In this document: one piece after another, positions 4,555 to 19,787 of the stretch | Numbering within the stretch: the stretch's first letter is position 1 | How the letters are laid out: each line of letters begins with the position of its first letter | DNA from: Eubacteriales bacterium | GTDB lineage: Bacteria; Bacillota; Clostridia; Lachnospirales; Lachnospiraceae | DNA: 63,815 bases | Assembly: GCA_030539395.1 (NCBI GenBank) | Contig: JAUNSC010000018.1 | Coordinates: 1 to 63,815 of the forward strand | Direction: 5' to 3' | Program-made: the position numbers and the translations under genes | The notes under the pieces: generated by a model | What the model saw: only the letters and a program-made list of their open reading frames with translations | Told to the model about the DNA's origin: nothing | Database searches by the model: none

Positions 4555-4767
4555 ATGATAGATTTTGTTGTTGGTGCAATACTTATAGTAGTGGTAGGCT
4601 CGGCACTGGCGTATATTATCAAGGCCAGGAAGAATGGAATCAAATGCGTTGGCTGCCCGGATGCAAAGAACTGCGGTTCCTGCAGTCACACCGGAGAAGC
4701 AGTTTCCACATGTGGGTGTCATGGTGGGGCGTGTGCCGGATGCAGTTGTCATGCGGATGTAAAATGA
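4555..4767 (+). CDS. FeoB-associated Cys-rich membrane protein
   Basis: This 70-residue protein has one N-terminal membrane helix (DFVVGAILIVVVGSALAYII) and a C-terminal cytosolic tail with about nine cysteines and several histidines (CVGC, CGSC, CGCHGG, CAGCSCH). Such proteins follow feoB in many Firmicutes and are thought to handle iron near the FeoB pore; the role is not established. It starts 23 bp after feoB behind AAGGAG and is followed at once by a terminator. Confidence 0.85.
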   Translation: MIDFVVGAILIVVVGSALAYIIKARKNGIKCVGCPDAKNCGSCSHTGEAVSTCGCHGGACAGCSCHADVK

Positions 4768-4778
4768 TTGAAGAAGAG

Positions 4779-4812
4779 AAGGAGAACAGCAATGCGAACT
4801 GTTCTCCTTTTT
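4779..4812 (+). terminator. Terminator of the feo operon
   Basis: The arms AAGGAGAACAG (4779-4789) and CTGTTCTCCTT (4799-4809) form a perfect 11-bp stem with a 9-base loop, followed by T residues. Confidence 0.85.
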
Positions 4813-4825
4813 CAGTGTAAAAAAG

Positions 4826-4866
4826 AGGGGCCATCAGTCTCACATGACTTCGGCGCCCCTTTTTGT
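4826..4866 (-). terminator. Terminator of the convergent metal-binding gene
   Basis: AGGGGC and GCCCCT arms flanked by A and T runs lie just past the minus-strand stop codon. Read on the minus strand, the stem is followed by T residues. It may work in both directions. Confidence 0.65.
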
Positions 4867-4886
4867 CAATTTGTTTATAATTTATA

Positions 4887-5310: not shown

Positions 5311-5556
5311 TTTGAAAATGGCCAAATAAGAAATATAAATAGAAGCTGGGATTTTTGCGCATAATGTATATTTTTTGCGTAAAAACGTACGTTTAGACTA
5401 GATAATATAGCTAATATGTGTTATATTTAAACGTGTATTAATTGCAGTACTAAGTTATTTGCTTATTATTTTTTCTTCAAAGTGCAGAGGTTGAAAAAAT
5501 AACGAAAACAGATAAGCATAAGGTTTGTAAATCAAATTTATAAGGAAGGTGAGCAA
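5311..5556 (+). promoter_or_regulatory. Control region of the rnfC2-metV-metF operon
   Basis: This AT-rich gene-free stretch precedes the methyl-branch operon. It contains a perfect 12-bp palindrome AAACGTACGTTT (5383-5394) and two TTTTTGCG copies about 20 bp apart just upstream. GATAAT at 5401-5406 could be a -10, but the nearest -35-like TTGCGT (5375-5380) is 20 bp away, so no promoter can be fixed. The Shine-Dalgarno AAGGAAGGTGAG precedes the TTG start at 5557. Confidence 0.45.
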
Positions 5557-8183: not shown

Positions 8184-9062
8184 ATGAAAATTACTGAAGC
8201 ATTTGAACGTGGTGAATTTGTAGTTACTGCGGAAGTAGGTCCGCCAAAAGGATTTCATATTGAACATATGCTGGAAGAAGCGAAGACTTATCTGAGTGGT
8301 ATCACAGCGGTTAACGTGACAGATAATCAGTCCTCCGTTATGCGTCTTGGTTCTCTGGCAACCTGTAAAGCTCTGAAGGATGAAGGGCTGACACCTATTT
8401 TCCAGATGACCTGTCGTGACAGAAACCGTATCGCTCTGGAGTCAGATCTCTTAAGTGCAGCGATGTTCGGAATCGAAAACCTGCTGCTTTTAACAGGAGA
8501 CCATACCAAACTGGGCGATCATCCGCAGGCAAAGCCTGTTTTTGATCTGGATTCTGTATCTCTGATTCATGCAGTGAAACAACTGGAATCAGGCGTGGAT
8601 CTCGGCGGAAATGAGCTGGTTGGAGAGCCGCCTGAATTTGCTAAGGGAGCAGTTGTATCACCTTGCAGCGATTCTGTTGATGTTCAGCTTGCAAAAATGG
8701 AGAGAAAGGTTGCTGCAGGTGCAGAATATTTCCAGACACAGGCAGTTTTTGAACCGGAAAAGTTTATCCAGTTCATGGAGAAAGCAAAACAGTTTGGCAA
8801 ACCGGTTCAGGTTGGAATTATTATCCCGAAATCAGCAGGAATGGCAAAATTCATGAACAACAATGTTGCCGGTGTTCATGTTCCTGACGACATGATCGAG
8901 GAGCTTAAAAAAGACAAGGAAAAAACCAAAGCAGGTATCACTGGTGTAGAGATTGCGGCACGCATTATCAAAGAATGCAGGCCGTACTGCCAGGGTGTAC
9001 ATATCATGGCATTGGGCTGGGAGGCAAAAGTACCGGAGCTTCTTAAGCAGGCTGGAATTTAA
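8184..9062 (+). CDS. metF: MetF, methylenetetrahydrofolate reductase
   Basis: MetF reduces 5,10-methylene-THF to 5-methyl-THF on a flavin in a TIM barrel. In acetogens this is the last step of the methyl branch. The 292-residue length is normal. Visible family marks are FVVTAEVGPPKG at the start, QMTCRDRNR, LLLTGDHTK, the QTQAVFEP stretch and the C-terminal GVHIMALGWEAK. The electron donor is supplied by the upstream rnfC2 and metV products. The RBS is AGGAGC and a strong terminator follows. Confidence 0.95.
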   Translation: MKITEAFERGEFVVTAEVGPPKGFHIEHMLEEAKTYLSGITAVNVTDNQSSVMRLGSLATCKALKDEGLTPIFQMTCRDRNRIALESDLLSAAMFGIENLLLLTGDHTKLGDHPQAKPVFDLDSVSLIHAVKQLESGVDLGGNELVGEPPEFAKGAVVSPCSDSVDVQLAKMERKVAAGAEYFQTQAVFEPEKFIQFMEKAKQFGKPVQVGIIIPKSAGMAKFMNNNVAGVHVPDDMIEELKKDKEKTKAGITGVEIAARIIKECRPYCQGVHIMALGWEAKVPELLKQAGI

Positions 9063-9074
9063 TGATTAATTTTC

Positions 9075-9116
9075 AAATGACCGAAAGCTGTTTTTATGTT
9101 TTCGGTCATTTTTCTT
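9075..9116 (+). terminator. Terminator after metF
   Basis: AAATGACCGAAA (9075-9086) pairs with TTTTCGGTCATTT (9099-9111), followed by TTTCTTT. It ends the rnfC2-metV-metF operon. Confidence 0.85.
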
Positions 9117-9176
9117 TATAGGAAAGCCATCTGCGACGTTCTTTTGAAAAAAGCTTTCACAAAGGAGGGCACAAAA

Positions 9177-9275
9177 ATGCAACGACACGGTTTAGAAGAT
9201 ATAGAAGTCTTCAACGCCAGCCTCGTCAGTAAACGAGTCATCTTCTGCAGCCCTGTTCTTTATAATTATTATTGA
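9177..9275 (+). CDS. Possible 32-residue small protein
   Basis: An ATG at 9177 stands behind a near-perfect AAAGGAGGGC site with 7-base spacing and opens a 32-codon frame (MQRHGLEDIEVFNASLVSKR...). It overlaps the 3' end of the convergent antiporter gene by 38 bases. No family is recognised. It could be a true small protein, the remnant of a longer gene, or a chance frame with a good RBS. Confidence 0.3.
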   Translation: MQRHGLEDIEVFNASLVSKRVIFCSPVLYNYY

Positions 9276-10581
9276 ACGTTTTTTCCGGAATAAGGAAAAT
9301 GAATACCAGTGAACTGATCAGAAGCATAAATGGATAATGCAGGTTTGGAATAATATCAAACGCCGAGATTTCACAACCAAGTTCTGTGGCTGCTGAGATG
9401 GCCACCAGCATCTGTGCACCATATGGGATAATACCCTGGAAAATACAGGAAAAAGTGTCCAGAATGGAGGCTGTTTTTCTCGGAGAAATGTGATATTCTT
9501 CTGCCATTTCCTTCGCAATGGGATTCGCCATTACAATGGCAACTGTGTTATTGGCGGTGGCAATATCCATGGCACCAACCAGAAGTCCCATACCCAGCTT
9601 TCCGCCTTTACTTCCTTTGAATACCCGTTTGATAAAACTAAGGAGGGCGGCAAATCCGCCGTATTCATGGATCAGTGCACAGATGGCGGACACCAGAATC
9701 GCCACCATAGTGGTTTCAAACATTCCGGCTGCACCGGAACCCATATTGCTGAGAAGATCGGTGGCTTTTGTAGCTCCGGTAGCGAGCATGATCAGAGAAC
9801 CGGAAAAGATACCGATTAAGAGTACTACAAATACATTGATACCGATAATACCTCCGATCAGAACGAGGACATAGGGAATAATCTGAATCAGACTGTAGCT
9901 TTTTGAAACAGTTTCGCCTGCTTCGGCGCCAAAGGTTTTTGTCAGAATGATTATCAGAGTGACAAAAGCGGCAGGAAATGCAATTCCGAAATTTTCACGG
10001 AATTTATCTTTCATCTGGCAGCCCTGTCCGTTGCATGCGGCAATGGTGGTGTCTGATATAAAGGAAAGATTGTCTCCGAACATGGCTCCGCCCATAACGG
10101 CACCGATGCAGAGCGGTGTATTAAAACCGGAACCGTTGGATACCGCTACTGCAATAGGAGCAATCAGTGTAATAGTTCCTACAGAAGTGCCCATCGCCAG
10201 CGATACAAAACAACTTACGAGAAACAATACCAGGACAGAAAAACGGGCAGGAATAATGGAAAGAAGAAAGTAAGCTACGCTTTCCGCGCTGCTGCGGCCG
10301 ACAACGCCGACAAAAATACCGGCAACCATGAAAATAAGGATCATGGTAAGAATATTTTTATCTCCCACACCTTTTGCCATAAGCTCCAGCTTGTCATCAA
10401 AACTTACGTCAGGGTTTTGCAGACAGGCCACCAGAAGAGCTGTCAAAAAGGAAACCACGATAGGTATGTTATAAAATCCCATAGGGATTTTCATGATATA
10501 TTCAAATAAAATTCCAAGACCAAGATACATTGCGAGAAAAACCCCGATCGGCAGTAATGCCTTCCAATTTTCTTTGTGCAT
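9238..10581 (-). CDS. NhaC-family Na+/H+ antiporter
   Basis: This is a 447-residue polytopic membrane protein with about 11-12 helices. Repeated GAVMGGAMFGDNLSFISDTTIAA-type segments are diagnostic of the NhaC family, whose members exchange Na+ or organic substrates (as in malate-lactate exchange) for H+. I chose the ATG at 10581 (MHKENWKALL) because AGGAGG lies 7 bases upstream. A 17-residue longer form has no RBS. The gene is monocistronic and convergent with the metF side. In a cell with a Na+-type ATP synthase an antiporter would adjust the sodium gradient; the real substrate is not shown. Confidence 0.85.
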   Translation of the reverse strand: MHKENWKALLPIGVFLAMYLGLGILFEYIMKIPMGFYNIPIVVSFLTALLVACLQNPDVSFDDKLELMAKGVGDKNILTMILIFMVAGIFVGVVGRSSAESVAYFLLSIIPARFSVLVLFLVSCFVSLAMGTSVGTITLIAPIAVAVSNGSGFNTPLCIGAVMGGAMFGDNLSFISDTTIAACNGQGCQMKDKFRENFGIAFPAAFVTLIIILTKTFGAEAGETVSKSYSLIQIIPYVLVLIGGIIGINVFVVLLIGIFSGSLIMLATGATKATDLLSNMGSGAAGMFETTMVAILVSAICALIHEYGGFAALLSFIKRVFKGSKGGKLGMGLLVGAMDIATANNTVAIVMANPIAKEMAEEYHISPRKTASILDTFSCIFQGIIPYGAQMLVAISAATELGCEISAFDIIPNLHYPFMLLISSLVFIFLIPEKTFNNNYKEQGCRR

Positions 10582-12276: not shown

Positions 12277-13395
12277 ATGGAAAAAGCAAATGTGTATTTT
12301 ACTACATTTAAAGCGACAGCACATGAGAACCTGCTTCAGAAACTGCACAGGATGATGAAAACTGCAGGGTTTGAAACGATTGACTTTCAGGAAAAATATG
12401 CCGCTATAAAAATTCATTTTGGCGAGTATGGAAACCTGGCTTTTCTTCGCCCCAATTATGCGAAGGTTGTTGCTGATTATGTAAAGGAGTTAGGCGGAAA
12501 GCCATTTTTGACAGATTGCAATACTCTGTATGTGGGAAGCAGAAAAAATGCCCTGGATCATATGGAAACAGCTTATGTGAATGGATTTTCACCGTATCAG
12601 ACCGGCTGCCATGTGATTATCGGCGACGGTTTGAAAGGAACGAATGAAGCTTTAGTGCCGATAAATGGAGAATATGTAAAAGAAGCAAAAATCGGTCAGG
12701 CAATTATGGATGCAGATATCTTTATTTCATTGACTCATTTTAAGGGACATGAGATGGCCGGATTTGGCGGAGCGCTGAAAAACATCGGAATGGGATGTGG
12801 TTCCAGAAGCGGAAAGATGGAGCAGCATTGTGATGGAAAACCCAGCGTTGACCAGAGCCTCTGTGTAGGGTGCGGTGCATGCAGAAAGATCTGCGCACAT
12901 GGAGCGCCGGTTATTGAGAATAGAAAAGCCACGATTGATCATGATAAATGTGTAGGGTGCGGACGGTGTCTGGCAGTCTGTCCGAAAGATGCGATTGCGG
13001 CAGATTATAATGATTCTATTGCAATGCTCAATTATAAAATGGCAGAATATGCTCTTGCGGTTTGCAGGGACCGTCCATGTTTCCACGTATCACTGATCTG
13101 TGACGTTTCACCGAACTGCGACTGCCATGCAGAAAATGATATTCCGATCATTCCCAATGTGGGTATGCTGGCTTCTTTTGATCCGGTTGCACTGGATCAG
13201 GCATGTGCGGATCTCTGCAATAAGATGGCGCCGGTTGAGGGAAGTGTTTTAAGCGACAATCTGGCAGAGCACGGAAACTGCGAAGGACATGATCATTTCC
13301 ATATGACCCATCCGGATACAGAATGGAGAACTTGTATTTCTCATGCAGTGAAAATCGGACTTGGAACAAATGAATATGAACTGATTATAATATAG
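12277..13395 (+). CDS. DUF362-family protein with two 4Fe-4S clusters
   Basis: This 372-residue protein has the DUF362 fold: N-terminal KIHFGEYGNLAFLRP, then FISLTHFKGHEMAGFGGALKNIGMG. A ferredoxin insert carries CVGCGACRKIC and CVGCGRCLAVCPKDA at about residues 190-240, and a C-terminal part has DVSPNCDCHAENDIP. The family is common in anaerobes and has no firmly assigned reaction; an electron-transfer or redox-maturation role is likely. The RBS is GGGAGG. A small Cys-rich gene follows 30 bp downstream and may be co-transcribed. Confidence 0.85.
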   Translation: MEKANVYFTTFKATAHENLLQKLHRMMKTAGFETIDFQEKYAAIKIHFGEYGNLAFLRPNYAKVVADYVKELGGKPFLTDCNTLYVGSRKNALDHMETAYVNGFSPYQTGCHVIIGDGLKGTNEALVPINGEYVKEAKIGQAIMDADIFISLTHFKGHEMAGFGGALKNIGMGCGSRSGKMEQHCDGKPSVDQSLCVGCGACRKICAHGAPVIENRKATIDHDKCVGCGRCLAVCPKDAIAADYNDSIAMLNYKMAEYALAVCRDRPCFHVSLICDVSPNCDCHAENDIPIIPNVGMLASFDPVALDQACADLCNKMAPVEGSVLSDNLAEHGNCEGHDHFHMTHPDTEWRTCISHAVKIGLGTNEYELIII

Positions 13396-13425
13396 GCCTT
13401 TTGAGTGATAGAGGGAGATGATGCA

Positions 13426-13734
13426 ATGTTCGGAATGCGCCGGAAAAAGAAGGAAAAAACGGTAAAGAAAATACAGATCTGTCCGGCCTGCGGCAGAGAA
13501 TATCCGGGCAGTCCGCGCTGTGAGGTATCCCAGATGACAGCAGACGGACTTCCGTACCAGAGGATTAAATATGGTTCAGCCAGAGAAGGATATGGTCCGG
13601 CTTTGGGAAACTGCGTATGCTGCGGTGTATTTCCGGGTGCACTGCATCATTGGGGCTGCGTGTTGGAAGTTTGTCCGGCCTGCGGGGGACAGATGTTATC
13701 CTGTGCCTGCGATACAAAGCATACAAATGCATGA
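13426..13734 (+). CDS. Small Cys-rich zinc-ribbon-like protein
   Basis: The protein has 102 residues from ATG 13426, with GAGGGAG about 8 bases upstream; a GTG at 13405 would add 7 residues without an RBS. A basic N-terminus is followed by CPACGRE, CVCCGV, CPACGG and a final CACD, so at least two CxxC pairs could bind zinc. I do not recognise a named family. The context (directly after the DUF362 iron-sulfur protein) allows a metal- or redox-related role but does not prove it. Confidence 0.6.
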   Translation: MFGMRRKKKEKTVKKIQICPACGREYPGSPRCEVSQMTADGLPYQRIKYGSAREGYGPALGNCVCCGVFPGALHHWGCVLEVCPACGGQMLSCACDTKHTNA

Positions 13735-13788
13735 ATATGCATTAAAATACTGTTTTTGATGAATTTTGTAAAAAAATGCAAAAATAGA

Positions 13789-13817
13789 TTGACGTATATG
13801 ATAAAAGGAGTTAGAAT
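13789..13817 (+). promoter_or_regulatory. Promoter of the T-box/TRAP transcription unit
   Basis: TTGACG (13789-13794) and TAGAAT (13812-13817) are separated by 17 bp. Transcription would begin near 13824, just before the leader hairpins. Confidence 0.65.
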
Positions 13818-13823
13818 CACTTT

Positions 13824-14137
13824 GTTACGTTAATTGGACAAAGAATCCAATGCATAATAGTAAATTCGATGAAGAGAAGAAGTAGGAGCAATTACCGGGT
13901 TACAGAGAGCTGTCGGCTGGTGTGAGACAGTACGAGGGTTGCTTTGAAAATCATCTCAGAGAAGGGAAGCCGAAAGAGGTTTTCTGCAGACGGCAGAAGG
14001 GCAAGTAGGTTTCCACGGGCGTTTCCCGTTACAGAAGCCACGTATGCTGGTACGTAGAGATCGTACTTGTTTCAATGAAGAAACAGGGTGGTTGCGGAAT
14101 ATTTAAAAACCGTCCCCAGTTCGGGGACGGTTTTTTT
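13824..14137 (+). ncRNA. T-box leader (tRNA-sensing riboswitch)
   Basis: The signature elements occur in order: GATGAAGAG with the AGTAGG loop-E element (13868-13886), AGAGAGC, CTGGTGTGAGACAG of the stem I head, and a specifier region TTTGAAAATCATCTCAGAG (13943-13961). Next come AGTAGG...ACGGGCG...CCCGTTACAGA of stem III, and the antiterminator T-box AGGGTGGTTGCGG (14085-14097), overlapped by a terminator. ATC (13950-13952, Ile) is the most likely specifier; AAT (Asn) is the alternative. TGGT in the T-box pairs with an A discriminator base, as in tRNA-Ile. It should let transcription through when the cognate tRNA is uncharged. Confidence 0.9.
14105..14137 (+). terminator. Regulated terminator of the T-box leader
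   Basis: CCGTCCCC (14110-14117) pairs with GGGGACGG (14123-14130) around a 5-base loop. The stem is flanked by five A and seven T residues. It competes with the antiterminator that contains AGGGTGGTTGCGG. Confidence 0.9.
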
Positions 14138-14166: not shown

Positions 14167-14234
14167 GGCATGGAGGATTCCATTCTGCGCTGCTCAGCAT
14201 TCACTAAATCTTTATATAAAGGAGGAGCATGGTT

Positions 14235-14738
14235 ATGAAAACCTACAAAAAAATCATGAATGGTCTTGCTTTCGTGGAAAAGTGCATTCTGGCAGCAACT
14301 ACAGTTCTGATCCTTGTTCTGACGGTAGGAAATGTTTTTTCACGTAAGGTCATTCATCAATCCTGGTCCTTTACGGAGGAACTGGTTGTGGCAGTCTTTG
14401 TACTGATCACCTTAATAGCTGCGGCACTTGCCTGCAGGGAAGGAGAATTGGTAAACCTATCCCTCTTGCTGGACCGGCTTCCGGAAAAGGCTCAAAAGCC
14501 GTTCATGATAATTGACACGGTATTTTGTGTTGCCTTTACATCAGTGCTGTTCAAATATGGCATGGATAAAGTGTTAACACAGATGGAAAATGGAAAGAGA
14601 ACTTTTGTGCTGAACTGGCCGGAGTGGATTTTCTGGTCTTTCGTGCCCATCGGTGCAGCCTGTATGATCCTGCACTTTATAGAATTTTGCATGAATTACT
14701 GTAGTAATGAAGAAAAGGAGGAAAAAGTAAATGATTAG
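14235..14738 (+). CDS. TRAP transporter small permease (DctQ)
   Basis: This is a 167-residue membrane protein with four predicted helices (for example VEKCILAATTVLILVLTVGN and VVAVFVLITLIAAALACREG). The family marks SFTEELVVAVFV and REGELVNLSLLLDRLP are present. DctQ pairs with the DctM permease in substrate:Na+ symport. I chose the ATG at 14235 (MKTYKK) because AGGAGG then has 9-base spacing; the ATG at 14229 is only three bases from it. The gene overlaps the next start by 8 bases, so the pair is translationally coupled under the T-box. Confidence 0.9.
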   Translation: MKTYKKIMNGLAFVEKCILAATTVLILVLTVGNVFSRKVIHQSWSFTEELVVAVFVLITLIAAALACREGELVNLSLLLDRLPEKAQKPFMIIDTVFCVAFTSVLFKYGMDKVLTQMENGKRTFVLNWPEWIFWSFVPIGAACMILHFIEFCMNYCSNEEKEEKVND

Positions 14739-17700
14739 TGCAGTTTTATTTATTTCCTTCTTTATATTTCTGATTTTTGGAATTCCAATTGGAATCTGTC
14801 TGGGGCTGTCTTCAATTTGTGCGATTATCTATTCAGGTACTTCGCTGACAATTGTGGCAACCAATATGTATTCCGGAATCAGTAAGTTTTTGCTTTTGGC
14901 AATTCCGTTCTTTGTATTGTCCGGAAATATTATGGCAAAAGCCGGAATTTCAAAACGTCTGATTAAATTTGTAAATACCTGTGTGGGACATAAAAAAGGC
15001 GGTATTGCCATCGTGTGTGTTATTGTTGCGTGCTTCTTTGGTGCAATTTCCGGTTCCGGCCCGGCAACAGTTGCAGCTCTTGGGGCGGTGCTGATCCCGG
15101 CGATGATTGCAGAAGGCGGTTTTTCAGCTCCTTTCTCCACGGCGCTGATGGCAACTTCCAGCTCTATCGCGATTGTTATTCCTCCAAGTATCGCTTTTGT
15201 TGTATACGCATCCATTACAGGTGTGTCAATTGCGGATATGTTTACTGCGGGTATTGTGCCTGGCATTCTTATGGGTGTGGCACTTGCCGTTGTGGTTATG
15301 ATCGAGGCAAGAAAGAAGAACATTCAGCCGTCCCGTGAAAAAGCAAGTGCAAAAGAAAGATGGGATTCTTTTAAAGATGCATTCTGGGGATTCCTTATGC
15401 CGGTCATTATTCTGGGCGGTATTTATGGAGGTATCTTCACACCGACAGAGGCGGCTGCGGTATCCGTGGCATACGGACTTTTCGTGGGAATGGTCATTTA
15501 CCGTGAGATCAGACTGTCAGATCTGTGGGATGTATGCATTGATTCTGCAAAGACAACAGGCGGCATCATGTTGATCGTAGCATGTGCGTCCCTGTTTTCC
15601 TATGTTTGTACACAGTTTGGAATCGCTGAAGCGGCATCTGACCTTCTGGGAAGCATTGCCCATAATCAGTTTGTTTTCCTCCTGATCGTAAATATCATTT
15701 TCCTGATTGCAGGATGTTTTATTGATGCGAACTCCGCTATGTATATCTTTATCCCGATCATGCTGCCGGTCTGCAAGGCGCTGGGATATGATGTTGTGGC
15801 ATTTGGTATTGTAGCAACTGTCAACCTGGCGATCGGACAGGTTACACCGCCGGTAGGCGTAAACCTGTTTGTGGCTATTTCGGTAAAATTAAAAGAGGGA
15901 TTGAAGGTAACGATCCAGGATATTTCAAAAGCGGTCCTGCCGATGATCGGCGCCAGTGTTGTGGTACTGCTTCTGATTACATATGTGCCGTCAATCTCTA
16001 CCTTCCTGCCCAAAGCATTGTCAAAGGATTCTTATACAGGAACTGTTACGGCAAGTGCTGATAATACAGGAAATTTAGAGGAGGGCAATGCTGCACCGGA
16101 AGAAGATTCTTATAACGATATTGAAGATTACAGTGATCTTGGCTGGGAAGAGCAGACCTGGAACTTCACCTGCTCAACGACAGAGACAAGTACCTGGGCA
16201 GAGGGCGGACGCAAGTTTGCAGAGCTGATGGAAAAGGCAACAGGCGGTAAGGTGACTGTGAATGTGTACGCAGCAGACCAGCTGACGAACGGAAACCAGT
16301 CTGAGGGTATCCAGGCTTTGATGAATGGAGACCCGGTACAGGTATCCATGCACAGCAATCTGATCTATTCTGCATTTGATCCGCGTTTTAATGTGGTATC
16401 CCTGCCGTACATTTTTGATTCTGTGGAAGATGCGGATGCCAAACTGGACGGCGAAGGCGGAGAAAAGATGAAAGAAATCCTCGGCGAATACGGCCTGCAT
16501 TGTATGGGTATCGCAGAGAACGGATTCCGCCAGCTGACAAATAATGTAAGAGAGATCAAATCCGCAGAGGATATGAAGAACCTGAAGATCCGTGTGGCAG
16601 GAAGCAATCTTCTTATGGAATGCTATAAGAGATGGGGCGCAGATGCCACCAACATGAACTGGTCCGAGACATATACAGCACTTCAGCAGAAGACGGTAGA
16701 AGGTCAGGAGAATCCGCTGCCGGCAATCGATGCGGCCAGCGTACAGGAAGTACAGCCCTACTGTTCACTGTGGGGAGCGAATTATGACTGTCTGTTTTTC
16801 TGTATCAACCAGGAAATCTATGATTCTCTGACAGATGAGCAGAAGGCGGTGATTGATGAATGCGGTGCGACAGCAACAGAATATCAGAGGGACATCAACC
16901 GTGCAGGAAATGATGAGATCATGAGCCGCTGGGAAGAAAAGAACGGAGTAACAATTACACCGTATGAAGATCTTGATATTGATTCCTTCAAGAGCGCTGT
17001 TGAGGGTGTGGCTGACTGGTATCAGAAAGAGCTGGAAGTTCAGGGGTATGAAGATGCCGCAGATTTGATTGCGGCCTTTACAGGAACAGATACGGATACG
17101 GTGCAGGCAGCAGAAGAAAAAACTTATGATGTGGCTGATTACAGTGATCTTGGCTGGGAAGAGCAGACCTGGAATTTCACCTGCTCAACGACAGAGACAA
17201 GTACCTGGGCAGAGGGCGGACGTAAGTTTGCCGAACTGGTGGAAAAAGCTACCGGTGGGAAAATTAAAGTTGATGTATACGCGGCAGACCAGCTGACGAA
17301 CGGAAACCAGTCTGAGGGTATCCAGGCATTGATGGATGGAGACCCGGTACAGGTATCCATGCACAGCAACCTGATCTATTCTGCATTTGATCCGCGTTTT
17401 AATGTGGTATCCCTGCCGTACATTTTTGATTCTGTGGAAGATGCGGATGCCAAACTGGACGGCGAAGGCGGAGAAAAGATGAAAGAAATCCTCGGCGAAT
17501 ACGGCCTGCATTGTATGGGTATCGCAGAGAACGGATTCCGCCAGCTGACAAATAATGTAAGAGAGATCAAATCCGCAGAGGATATGAAGAACCTGAAGAT
17601 CCGTGTGGCAGGAAGCAATCTTCTTATGGAATGCTATAAGAGATGGGGCGCAGATGCCACCAACATGAACTGGTCCGAGACATATACAGCACTTCAGCAG

Positions 17701-19164
17701 AAGACGGTAGAAGGTCAGGAGAATCCGCTGCCGGCAATCGATGCGGCCAGCGTACAGGAAGTACAGCCCTACTGTTCACTGTGGGGAGCGAATTATGACT
17801 GTCTGTTTTTCTGTATCAACCAGGAAATCTATGATTCTCTGACAGATGAGCAGAAGGCGGTGATTGATGAATGCGGTGCGACAGCAACAGAATATCAGAG
17901 GGACATCAACCGTGCAGGAAATGATGAGATCATGAGCCGCTGGGAAGAAAAGAACGGAGTAACAATTACACCGTATGAAGATCTTGATATTGATTCTTTC
18001 AAAGAAGCAGTAGAAGGAATTGATGAATGGTACAGAGACGAATTGGAAGGCCAGGGATATGATGATGCAGCAGAACTGATTGCGGCATTTACACAGGAAA
18101 CTGCTTCGGCAGATGATGCGGCAGAAGCTGTTTCAGAAGAAGAAACAGAAGCAGTCTCCCAGGTACAGAACCCCGCATTGACAGAACCGGACACTTCTGT
18201 GGCTGATTACAGTGATCTTGGCTGGGAAGAGCAAACCTGGAATTTCACCTGCTCAACGACAGAGACGAGTACCTGGGCTGAAGCCGGACGTAAGTTTGGC
18301 GAGATGGTGGCTCAGGCCACGGGCGGAAAAGTAGAGGTAAATGTATATGCAGCAGACCAGCTGACGAACGGAAACCAGTCTGAGGGTATCCAGGCATTGA
18401 TGGATGGAGACCCGGTACAGGTGTCTCTGCACAGCAACCTGATCTACTCTGCATTTGATCCGCGCTTTAACGTGGTGTCACTGCCATATCTGTTCGACTC
18501 CGTAGAAGATGCAGATGCCAAACTGGACGGCGAAGGCGGAGAAAAGATGAAAGAAATTCTCGGTGAATACGGTCTGCACTGCATGGGAATTGCAGAGAAC
18601 GGATTCCGCCAGCTGACAAACAATGTCAGGGAAGTTAAATCCGTAGAGGATATGAAGAACCTGAAAATCCGTGTGGCAGGAAGCAACCTTCTTATGGAAT
18701 GCTATAAGAGGTGGGGAGCAGATGCTACGAATATGAACTGGTCCGAAACATATACTGCGCTTCAGCAGAAGACAGTAGAGGGCCAGGAGAATCCGCTTCC
18801 GGCAATCGATGCAGCCAGTGTACAGGAAGTACAGCCTTACTGCTCACTGTGGGGAGCGAATTATGACTGTCTCTTCTTCTGCATCAACCAGAAGGTCTAT
18901 GATGCGCTGACACCGGAGCAGCAGGCAGTGATTGATGAATGCGGTGAGAAAGCAACTGCATATCAGAGATATCTGAACCGTGCAGGAAATGATGAGATCA
19001 TGAGCCGCTGGGAAGAAAAGAATGGTGTGATGATCACTCCGTATGAAGAACTGGACATTGATTCCTTTAAGGAAGCAGTAGAAGGAATTGATGAATGGTA
19101 CATTAAAGAATTAGAGAACCAGAAGTATGACGATGGAGCAGAACTGGTTGCGGCTTTCCGGTAA
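14731..19164 (+). CDS. TRAP large permease (DctM) fused to three DctP solute-binding domains
   Basis: The single uninterrupted frame has 1477 residues; a lone DctM has about 430. Residues 1 to about 430 are DctM: many helices, ISGSGPATVAALG, PPSIAFVVYA, TPTEAAAVSVAYGL and PPVGVNLFVAI. Three TRAP receptor domains follow, beginning YSDLGWEEQTWNFTC at residues 467, 804 and 1160, each about 310 residues and joined by acidic, Ala/Thr-rich linkers. Each has LKIRVAGSNLLMECYKRWGA, with the conserved substrate-binding Arg, and KTVEGQENP. None has its own signal peptide, so the DctM C-terminus must face outward. Units 1 and 2 are almost identical and unit 3 is diverged. The three domains should feed one QM permease. 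Confidence 0.95.
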   Translation: MISAVLFISFFIFLIFGIPIGICLGLSSICAIIYSGTSLTIVATNMYSGISKFLLLAIPFFVLSGNIMAKAGISKRLIKFVNTCVGHKKGGIAIVCVIVACFFGAISGSGPATVAALGAVLIPAMIAEGGFSAPFSTALMATSSSIAIVIPPSIAFVVYASITGVSIADMFTAGIVPGILMGVALAVVVMIEARKKNIQPSREKASAKERWDSFKDAFWGFLMPVIILGGIYGGIFTPTEAAAVSVAYGLFVGMVIYREIRLSDLWDVCIDSAKTTGGIMLIVACASLFSYVCTQFGIAEAASDLLGSIAHNQFVFLLIVNIIFLIAGCFIDANSAMYIFIPIMLPVCKALGYDVVAFGIVATVNLAIGQVTPPVGVNLFVAISVKLKEGLKVTIQDISKAVLPMIGASVVVLLLITYVPSISTFLPKALSKDSYTGTVTASADNTGNLEEGNAAPEEDSYNDIEDYSDLGWEEQTWNFTCSTTETSTWAEGGRKFAELMEKATGGKVTVNVYAADQLTNGNQSEGIQALMNGDPVQVSMHSNLIYSAFDPRFNVVSLPYIFDSVEDADAKLDGEGGEKMKEILGEYGLHCMGIAENGFRQLTNNVREIKSAEDMKNLKIRVAGSNLLMECYKRWGADATNMNWSETYTALQQKTVEGQENPLPAIDAASVQEVQPYCSLWGANYDCLFFCINQEIYDSLTDEQKAVIDECGATATEYQRDINRAGNDEIMSRWEEKNGVTITPYEDLDIDSFKSAVEGVADWYQKELEVQGYEDAADLIAAFTGTDTDTVQAAEEKTYDVADYSDLGWEEQTWNFTCSTTETSTWAEGGRKFAELVEKATGGKIKVDVYAADQLTNGNQSEGIQALMDGDPVQVSMHSNLIYSAFDPRFNVVSLPYIFDSVEDADAKLDGEGGEKMKEILGEYGLHCMGIAENGFRQLTNNVREIKSAEDMKNLKIRVAGSNLLMECYKRWGADATNMNWSETYTALQQKTVEGQENPLPAIDAASVQEVQPYCSLWGANYDCLFFCINQEIYDSLTDEQKAVIDECGATATEYQRDINRAGNDEIMSRWEEKNGVTITPYEDLDIDSFKEAVEGIDEWYRDELEGQGYDDAAELIAAFTQETASADDAAEAVSEEETEAVSQVQNPALTEPDTSVADYSDLGWEEQTWNFTCSTTETSTWAEAGRKFGEMVAQATGGKVEVNVYAADQLTNGNQSEGIQALMDGDPVQVSLHSNLIYSAFDPRFNVVSLPYLFDSVEDADAKLDGEGGEKMKEILGEYGLHCMGIAENGFRQLTNNVREVKSVEDMKNLKIRVAGSNLLMECYKRWGADATNMNWSETYTALQQKTVEGQENPLPAIDAASVQEVQPYCSLWGANYDCLFFCINQKVYDALTPEQQAVIDECGEKATAYQRYLNRAGNDEIMSRWEEKNGVMITPYEELDIDSFKEAVEGIDEWYIKELENQKYDDGAELVAAFR
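16360..16985. repeat. Long direct repeat, copy 1 (DctP unit 1)
   Basis: Read base by base, this 626-bp tract is identical to 17371-17996, at an offset of 1011 bp (337 codons). It covers most of the first receptor domain. Confidence 0.9.
17371..17996. repeat. Long direct repeat, copy 2 (DctP unit 2)
   Basis: Identical to 16360-16985 as far as I can read. The first mismatch on the left is AAT/AAC at 16359/17370 and on the right TCC/TCT at 16986/17997. The third unit (from 18208) keeps the protein sequence but differs at many synonymous positions. Confidence 0.9.
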
Positions 19165-19193
19165 ACCGGCACTGATTGGAGAGGAAAGGATTC

Positions 19194-19787
19194 ATGCCAT
19201 TTTCTGTATTATGTGAAATGACACTGACGGCGGCCCTTACCGTATGGTCGCCGGGGCCAAACAATATTTTACTGCTTTCCACAGCCAGTAAATATGGATT
19301 TAAAAAGAATATGAAATTTATGCTGGGCATCTGGACAGGATCACTGTCGCTGATGATATTGTGCGGACTGCTTGGCAGCCTTCTGTCTTCCATTGTGCCT
19401 GAGGTCCGCCCGATAATGACCTGGGTGGGAGCGGGATATCTGTTTTATCTTGCATGGAAGACTTACAGGCGCCTGCCGCCTGGAGAGGAGGATACGCAGA
19501 AAGAACCTTCTTATGTGATGGGGATTTTTCTGCAGCTGATCAATGTGAAGATCATCATTTATGGTCTGACAATGTTTTCCTCTTTTATCCTGCCTTATGA
19601 ACAGAGACCCTTATTTTTGCTTTTCTATGCTTTTTATTTGATGGTAATGGGAGCAATCGGAAATCTGATTTGGGCGTTTGCAGGAAATGTTTTGCAGAAA
19701 TTTTATAAGGAGCGCTATAAGCTGGTAAATGTGATTATGGCACTTTTGCTGGTCTGGTGTGCGCTTAGGGTAATCGGGGTGCTTTAA
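19194..19787 (+). CDS. RhtB/LysE-family amino-acid exporter
   Basis: The 197-residue protein has about six membrane helices and the family signature SPGPNNILLLSTASKYGFKK near the N-terminus. Members export amino acids such as homoserine, threonine, leucine or lysine. The ATG at 19194 is preceded by GAGGAAAGGA; an upstream TTG at 19176 is possible but overlaps the RBS. It starts 30 bp after the TRAP fusion with no terminator between, so it is probably in the same T-box-controlled unit. An importer and an exporter would then share one amino-acid signal. Confidence 0.85.
   Translation: MPFSVLCEMTLTAALTVWSPGPNNILLLSTASKYGFKKNMKFMLGIWTGSLSLMILCGLLGSLLSSIVPEVRPIMTWVGAGYLFYLAWKTYRRLPPGEEDTQKEPSYVMGIFLQLINVKIIIYGLTMFSSFILPYEQRPLFLLFYAFYLMVMGAIGNLIWAFAGNVLQKFYKERYKLVNVIMALLLVWCALRVIGVL

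Follow-up and report, generated by a model that had tools for sequence, protein, structure and literature searches.

The window analyzed here, a 63,815-nt stretch of a draft Lachnospiraceae genome (Eubacteriales bacterium, assembly GCA_030539395.1, contig JAUNSC010000018.1), encodes a tripartite ATP-independent periplasmic (TRAP) permease whose large membrane subunit, DctM, runs on in the same reading frame into three DctP receptor domains. Together with a separate dctQ gene and a T-box leader with an isoleucine specifier, this protein probably forms a DctP-type TRAP importer with tethered, tandemly multiplied receptors that takes up isoleucine or a close relative, as judged from the sequence. 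The features of the TRAP locus are:

14229..14738, + strand: dctQ, small TRAP membrane subunit, 169 aa (PF04290, E 4.6e-32, 111.1 bits against a cut-off of 28.3)
14731..19164, + strand: dctM-(dctP)3 fusion, 1477 aa (open frame and Pfam domains)
14731..16020, + strand: DctM domain, residues 1-430
16021..16125, + strand: linker between DctM and the first receptor, residues 431-465 (without cysteine; low model confidence at 441-458)
16126..17082, + strand: DctP copy 1, residues 466-784
17137..18093, + strand: DctP copy 2, residues 803-1121
18205..19161, + strand: DctP copy 3, residues 1159-1477

The fusion protein is a complete DctM plus three complete DctP domains in one real frame. PF06808 (DctM) covers residues 7-422 (E 2e-113), and PF03480 (DctP) matches three stretches of the chain (whole-protein E 8.8e-210); chance can be set aside as an explanation of the architecture, every copy being a complete domain. 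An earlier first-pass annotation of this DNA had described one 4.4-kb frame with DctM and three DctP domains starting at residues 467, 804 and 1160, beside a separate DctQ. The frame and its domain order hold, and the PF04290 match in the preceding open reading frame (ORF), which overlaps the start of dctM by 8 bp, bears out the separate DctQ; the receptor starts themselves are at 466, 803 and 1159. The system therefore has the DctM, DctQ and DctP parts of a DctP-type TRAP transporter (TC 2.A.56). A separate secreted receptor is usual in that family, and here the receptors lie within the DctM chain. Given that a natural fusion of the M and P subunits has been described (PMC9352664), receptor separateness is a usual rather than a strictly defining trait of TRAP systems.

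Receptor copies and reliability of the assembly

Protein identity among the three receptor copies is 95.6% for copies 1 and 2, 88.7% for copies 1 and 3, and 90.3% for copies 2 and 3; of 304 compared residues, 29 separate copy 3 from copy 1 and 26 separate it from copy 2. At the nucleotide level, copies 1 and 2 are identical over 626 nt without interruption, while exact runs reach at most 47 nt between copies 1 and 3 and at most 71 nt between copies 2 and 3. The 626-nt identity therefore indicates a recent duplication of, or conversion between, copies 1 and 2. The arginine motif KIRV and the motifs NMNWSETYTAL and GQENPL are identical in all three copies. The arginine column, R163, is invariant in an alignment of 51 receptors (A2) and, read from its motif, would correspond to the carboxylate arginine of SiaP.

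The window is one contig of a 77-contig draft genome that is 94% complete, and a draft contig holding a 626-nt exact repeat is where an assembly artefact, the possibility that the first-pass annotation wished to see checked, might be expected. Assembly error is nevertheless an unlikely source of the architecture: three copies that have diverged from one another (81-84% identical in protein) are found in a complete chromosome, that of Blautia parvula (locus L040). Moreover, many separate assemblies carry two to four copies, and in two relatives (L075/L077 and L079/L081) assembly across the repeats ended in broken contigs instead. An artefact was ruled out on these grounds, and we give it next to no credence. 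The exact copy number in the window strain, for copies 1 and 2 above all, is uncertain without long reads.

Distribution among related genomes

Scanning named prokaryote genomes once, with the window protein as query, yielded 45 related loci, mostly from Lachnospiraceae where the family is named by title or tree label, and many of them from Blautia. The first-pass annotation had proposed a search for DctM joined to at least two DctP domains in one chain; such chains occur in 26 of the 45 loci, with two intact receptors in 21, three in four (L038-L041) and four in one (L037). One receptor is present in 11 loci, separate genes occur in L070 and L080, and contig ends cut five loci (L075, L077, L078, L079 and L081). 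The only visibly broken copy is in L056 (Blautia massiliensis GD8), where the second of two receptors is frameshifted and split over two overlapping frames (8371-9329); the relatives L044 and L071 are intact, and the split reflects either a sequencing error or recent decay.

Among 397 genomes of the family, partly of the same species, 18 had a close match: the window, eight two-receptor, seven one-receptor and two split systems. Seven of 391 genomes of the class matched at E<=1e-105, and the eight matches in the six genomes other than the window's were all separate M and P frames. A split version is also found in the window's own genus (L008 in G004). When 199 genomes of the phylum were examined for tandem or fused DctP with the Pfam DctP model, one frame above 500 aa was seen by eye among the best matches listed; this 1210-aa frame in G886 was rejected as a DctP fusion, as it contains a long run of X (unread bases). 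In the genomes searched, which is not an exhaustive search of distant TRAP families, multiple receptors were seen only in the window's subfamily.

Several single-receptor fusions stand out in this material. A sister subclade at 60-62% identity (L102-L107) consists of one-receptor fusions that have no T-box at threshold, and its substrate may differ from that of the window system. A fused one-receptor gene on a 3.4-kb contig of a Treponemataceae metagenome-assembled genome (L069) groups by sequence among Lachnospiraceae, which suggests mis-binning, with transfer as the alternative. In a more distant TRAP system (43% DctM identity), DctM and DctP matches fall in one 779-aa frame (G017:C119:8722-11031, - strand), apparently another M-P fusion.

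Copy-number evolution and selection

Copy number has changed often in this family. On a tree of 53 DctM domains (50 different; three pairs of identical rows included, L075 and L077-L081 left out), the copy-number label needs 17 changes, against a minimum of 5 and a shuffled mean of 24.2, and the state of three copies alone needs five. Sister loci differ in count: three against one in L038/L062 and L040/L064, and three against two in L039/L046 and L041/L055. In draft genomes, a low count may in some cases reflect repeats collapsed during assembly, given that the assemblies of B. wexlerae (L075, L077) and SUG1437 (L079, L081) break inside the repeats. In a receptor tree of 74 rows, copies cluster with those of their own or close species and not family-wide by position in the chain. 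Copies of close relatives do pair by position (L044/L071, L049/L076 and L053/L057), indicating that a given copy number can outlast speciation.

All 42 within-protein copy pairs compared gave a ratio of non-synonymous to synonymous substitution rates (dN/dS) of 0.04-0.19, at dS of up to 1.28; both this count and the receptor tree omit L056, L075, L077, L081 and domains shorter than 310 aa. Low dN/dS at high dS indicates that extra copies were kept functional over long times. The copies are thus under purifying selection, even as their number changes.

The isoleucine T-box leader

A T-box leader directly precedes dctQ; it is the best clue to the substrate, and the first-pass annotation overlooked it, as it did the exporter-like gene downstream. 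The elements of the leader are:

13789..13817, + strand: promoter-like site TTGACG-17-TAGAAT before the leader (consensus match only; 19 such sites found in the region against 12.1 expected in shuffles)
13860..14120, + strand: T-box leader RF00230 (105.5 bits, gathering score 93, full model 1-219)
13950..13952, + strand: specifier codon ATC, isoleucine (position matching ten other T-boxes of the genome)
14085..14097, + strand: T-box/antiterminator sequence AGGGTGGTTGCGG, read from the sequence, with AGGGTGG at 14085
14110..14137, + strand: terminator hairpin with a run of seven T, read from the sequence (not listed by the pattern scan)

The specifier was read in a fixed register (element offset 87-96; three bases, then six bases, then GAG, or GAA for valS), and the ten other T-boxes of the window genome, four above the gathering score and six below it (E 6e-21 to 3e-16), served as controls. 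Their specifiers were TTC for pheS, CTG for leuA, ACC for thrS, ATC for ileS, GTA for valS, ATG for metG, AAC for an aspartate--tRNA(Asn) ligase, and TGG for a TrpX-like receptor and two trpE genes, so that the specifier fits the downstream gene in 10 of 10 cases. Control genes were named by their best NCBIfam model, some below its cut-off, several of these because the gene was cut by the locus. The register was fixed while viewing the relatives and the first controls, and neither of these sets is blind; for L090, the AAC specifier was read first and the gene identified afterwards, as the aspartate--tRNA(Asn) ligase. An asparagine specifier, AAT, was considered and rejected: the base preceding ATC varies among relatives while ATC is constant, and the chosen register fits all ten controls.

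Among the 45 related loci, 27 have an upstream T-box (25 by sequence profile, L038 and L062 by Rfam), and the specifier is ATC in every one. At threshold a T-box is absent in the other 18, of which two have no upstream sequence and one has only 377 bp. A leader search of 15 further loci, several of them repeat species, left out L096 and found a T-box in six, all with ATC. In the one-receptor relative L064, the sequence before dctQ (at 5492) holds what appears by eye to be a truncated T-box, which retains the 3′ antiterminator/terminator part but has lost most of stem I, including the specifier. Elsewhere, L053 has a second T-box-like element on the opposite strand (4699-4881, - strand) with an apparent GTA (valine) specifier, and in L098 a Clostridiales-1 RNA (RF01699, 836-948) immediately follows the isoleucine T-box.

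Topology and proposed mechanism

The end of the DctM domain coincides with the ends of solved M chains. Homologues, charge pattern and model agree in placing this C-terminus probably outside the cell, the opposite of the cytoplasmic location that would have spoken against the first-pass annotation. Its proposal of tethered, repeated receptors in a cell without an outer membrane gains support from the fusion at this natural C-terminus, and likewise from the relatives with one to four copies and from the lipobox present on the receptor of a split relative. Successive receptors are joined by linkers of 3-37 residues with a flexible composition.

A plausible course of events would begin with fusion of a receptor to the outside C-terminus of DctM, followed by tandem multiplication, so that the receptor, formerly secreted or lipid-anchored, came to sit on a flexible ~35-residue tether. 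Intragenic duplication would have given one to four similar receptors per permease, with a recent duplication of, or conversion between, copies 1 and 2 in the window. Uncharged tRNA-Ile would let the leader be read through, and DctQ and the receptor-bearing DctM would then be made. The transport core is presumed to be ordinary: a receptor would close on its substrate, dock on the DctQ/DctM face and pass the substrate to the elevator domain, presumably coupled to sodium. In such a relay, one copy could deliver at DctQ/DctM while the others load.

In the free system of Haemophilus influenzae, the receptor is reported to bind the permease weakly, in the micromolar range (PMC10942642). Such an affinity would be tolerable in a periplasm filled with receptor, but presumably not in a Gram-positive cell. 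By our own estimate, a single receptor tethered within ~10 nm would have an effective concentration near millimolar; copies 2 and 3 would therefore probably add capture and reloading capacity rather than docking probability. As a tentative and broader proposal, to which we give slightly less than an even chance, this would be an isoleucine TRAP system under tRNA-Ile control in which the number of near-identical tethered receptors per permease is an evolvable setting, repeatedly gained and lost between one and four, with dosage fixed by stoichiometry. We know of no TRAP system for a branched-chain amino acid.

Substrate and alternative explanations

The most likely substrate is isoleucine, an assignment that derives from the T-box; perhaps another branched-chain amino acid is transported instead, or a precursor acid of isoleucine. 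Several observations weigh against an isoleucine importer whose several receptors matter. Of the 43 related loci for which some upstream sequence is available, 16 have no T-box at threshold, whole subclades among them (L058/L073/L074/L078 and three Roseburia loci), and the same holds for 9 of the 15 further loci; isoleucine control is therefore not universal. With ilvC and leuA retained, the window genome probably has its own branched-chain amino acid synthesis. A binder of a sugar acid (7bbr/7bco) is among the solved receptors that come closest in sequence and fold (~25-30% identity). Of 74 receptor rows, 11 lack the GQEN pattern (with GEEN in the four inspected), and in L039, L047 and L048 copies within one protein differ at this GQEN/GEEN motif. 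One-copy sister loci show that several receptors are not required for function. Finally, in the receptor part of the model the stretch 644-675 has a pLDDT <50, and the pTM is 0.57. Transfer of a ligand from the nearest solved receptors was rejected, these being too distant. In the 94%-complete window genome, the BrnQ branched-chain carrier family had no match.

The same tethered machine could instead carry an isoleucine precursor or related acid, such as 3-methyl-2-oxopentanoate or a dihydroxy acid. DctP receptors hold a carboxylate by a conserved arginine (PMC4646407), and that arginine is invariant in the 51 receptors; a TRAP receptor that binds alpha-keto acids is described (PMC1839085), and an isoleucine T-box would be equally sensible for a precursor. 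The recurrent LysE/RhtB neighbor suggests an amino acid, however, and no keto-acid enzyme was found among the three neighbors scanned besides DctQ, the wider surroundings lying outside that scan. A precursor acid as the substrate is thus rather unlikely, though worth considering. Less likely again is that the extra copies are a tolerated by-product of repeat instability with no functional gain. Frequent flips in copy number, sisters with three copies against one, and the long identical run in window copies 1 and 2 would all be expected from such instability, but the uniformly low dN/dS, also at high dS, and the single visibly broken locus among 45 argue for copies that are kept.

Two further explanations concern the receptors themselves, and both seem improbable. 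The chain might be a polyprotein that is cleaved after export to give free or wall-bound receptors, and its flexible linkers of 3-37 residues could be reached by proteases. Yet the 41 linkers between DctM and the first receptor, read by eye, vary in sequence and contain no lipobox or evident shared cleavage motif, and freed receptors would presumably be lost from a Gram-positive cell, which leaves cleavage with little to recommend it. With a marginally smaller chance, the three receptors might bind different ligands, as in GlnPQ; the 29 and 26 differences that set copy 3 apart and the GQEN/GEEN differences within single proteins of L039, L047 and L048 point that way. Against it stand the 88.7-95.6% identity of the window copies, the KIRV, NMNWSETYTAL and GQENPL motifs common to all of them, and the low dN/dS. 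We therefore retain an importer with tethered, similar receptors, and isoleucine as its most likely substrate.

Relation to known systems

The closest published architecture is a natural M-P fusion TRAP protein of Acidaminococcus intestini (UniProt G4Q5D7), described as rare (PMC9352664). As in the window, its receptor is fused to the M subunit, and the authors' model places the receptor on the periplasmic face; tandem copies and a T-box go unmentioned in the passage on this protein, and we liken it to the window by description and not by sequence. TRAP systems of the SiaPQM type (HiSiaQM, PpSiaQM) and IseQM, unlike the window system, use a free periplasmic receptor, and their substrates are sialic acid or isethionate.

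Outside the TRAP family, GlnPQ of Gram-positives likewise carries two receptors in tandem on a membrane part (PMC8025302). The first-pass annotation had drawn this parallel, which is sound for tandem tethering and loose otherwise: the two GlnPQ domains differ in ligand and affinity as described there, whereas the window copies are alike at the few motifs examined. GlnPQ is also an ATP-driven ABC transporter with an unrelated membrane part; the membrane part of the window system is DctM/DctQ, with no ABC transmembrane or ATPase parts. Fusions of a TAXI receptor to GltS, reported from Lachnospiraceae (PMC12344293), resemble the window in placing a receptor on a secondary, elevator-type transporter in the same bacterial family, and their published rationale is tethering for lack of a periplasm. 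They differ in having one TAXI receptor at the N-terminus of GltS, glutamate as substrate and no DctQM. A single DctM-DctP fusion (PMC9352664) and, for the TAXI-GltS fusions, the tethering rationale (PMC12344293) are already in print, which amends the first-pass annotation on both points; tandem DctP on DctM was not found in the open-licence literature.

Substrates of T-box-controlled amino-acid transporters have been predicted from the specifier codon before (Wels et al., 2008; PMC2494555), as we do here. The transporter families named in the relevant parts of that paper are ABC, APC, DAACS, LIVCS, MFS, NHAC and NSS; TRAP transporters are not among them, and the abbreviation "TRAP" in its three uses there denotes the tryptophan attenuation protein. 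Our searches of the open-licence literature turned up neither a DctM with more than one DctP domain nor a T-box before a TRAP system, including in the parts of PMC2494555 and PMC3766115 that bear on the question. Against that literature, tandem receptors on a TRAP permease and T-box control of a TRAP system would be new.

With receptor and permease as separate proteins, it is difficult to assess how many receptors a binding-protein-dependent transporter needs and whether tethering helps. A family of permeases in which the tethered receptors number one, two, three or four allows the question to be put directly. If the proposal is right, receptor dosage would be written into a single gene and fixed by stoichiometry. 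Through the isoleucine T-box, a specific substrate can be predicted for a TRAP system of common gut bacteria, tandem-receptor TRAP genes being common in the widespread gut genus Blautia. The T-box also suggests how branched-chain amino acids might enter a cell whose genome gave no BrnQ match.

Neighboring genes

Twelve bases after the fusion begins a gene that is possibly part of the same transcript:

19176..19787, + strand: LysE/RhtB-type amino-acid-exporter-like gene, 203 aa (best model NF007653, cysteine/O-acetylserine transporter, 151.7 bits against a cut-off of 193)

It scores below the cut-off of each named subfamily. An exporter homologue occurs somewhere in 23 of the 45 related loci. 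Of the 39 loci with at least 1 kb of sequence downstream of the receptor gene, 16 have it there at a distance of no more than 300 bp; two exporter genes with an overlap of a few bases with the TRAP gene end (L045, L051) are counted as adjacent. Among these 16, 13 are in opposite orientation and 3 on the same strand. The association is hardly due to abundance, because the window genome has a single other homologue (31% identity). It would make sense for an importer and an exporter to be neighbors if both handle one amino acid.

Two further observations concern the flanks of these loci. In the relative pair L038 and L062, a purine riboswitch lies just downstream of the TRAP gene (L038:10475-10570 and L062:8505-8600). 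In the window, a short frame with several CxxC pairs (13395-13735) lies between a ferredoxin-like gene (12277-13395) and the T-box.

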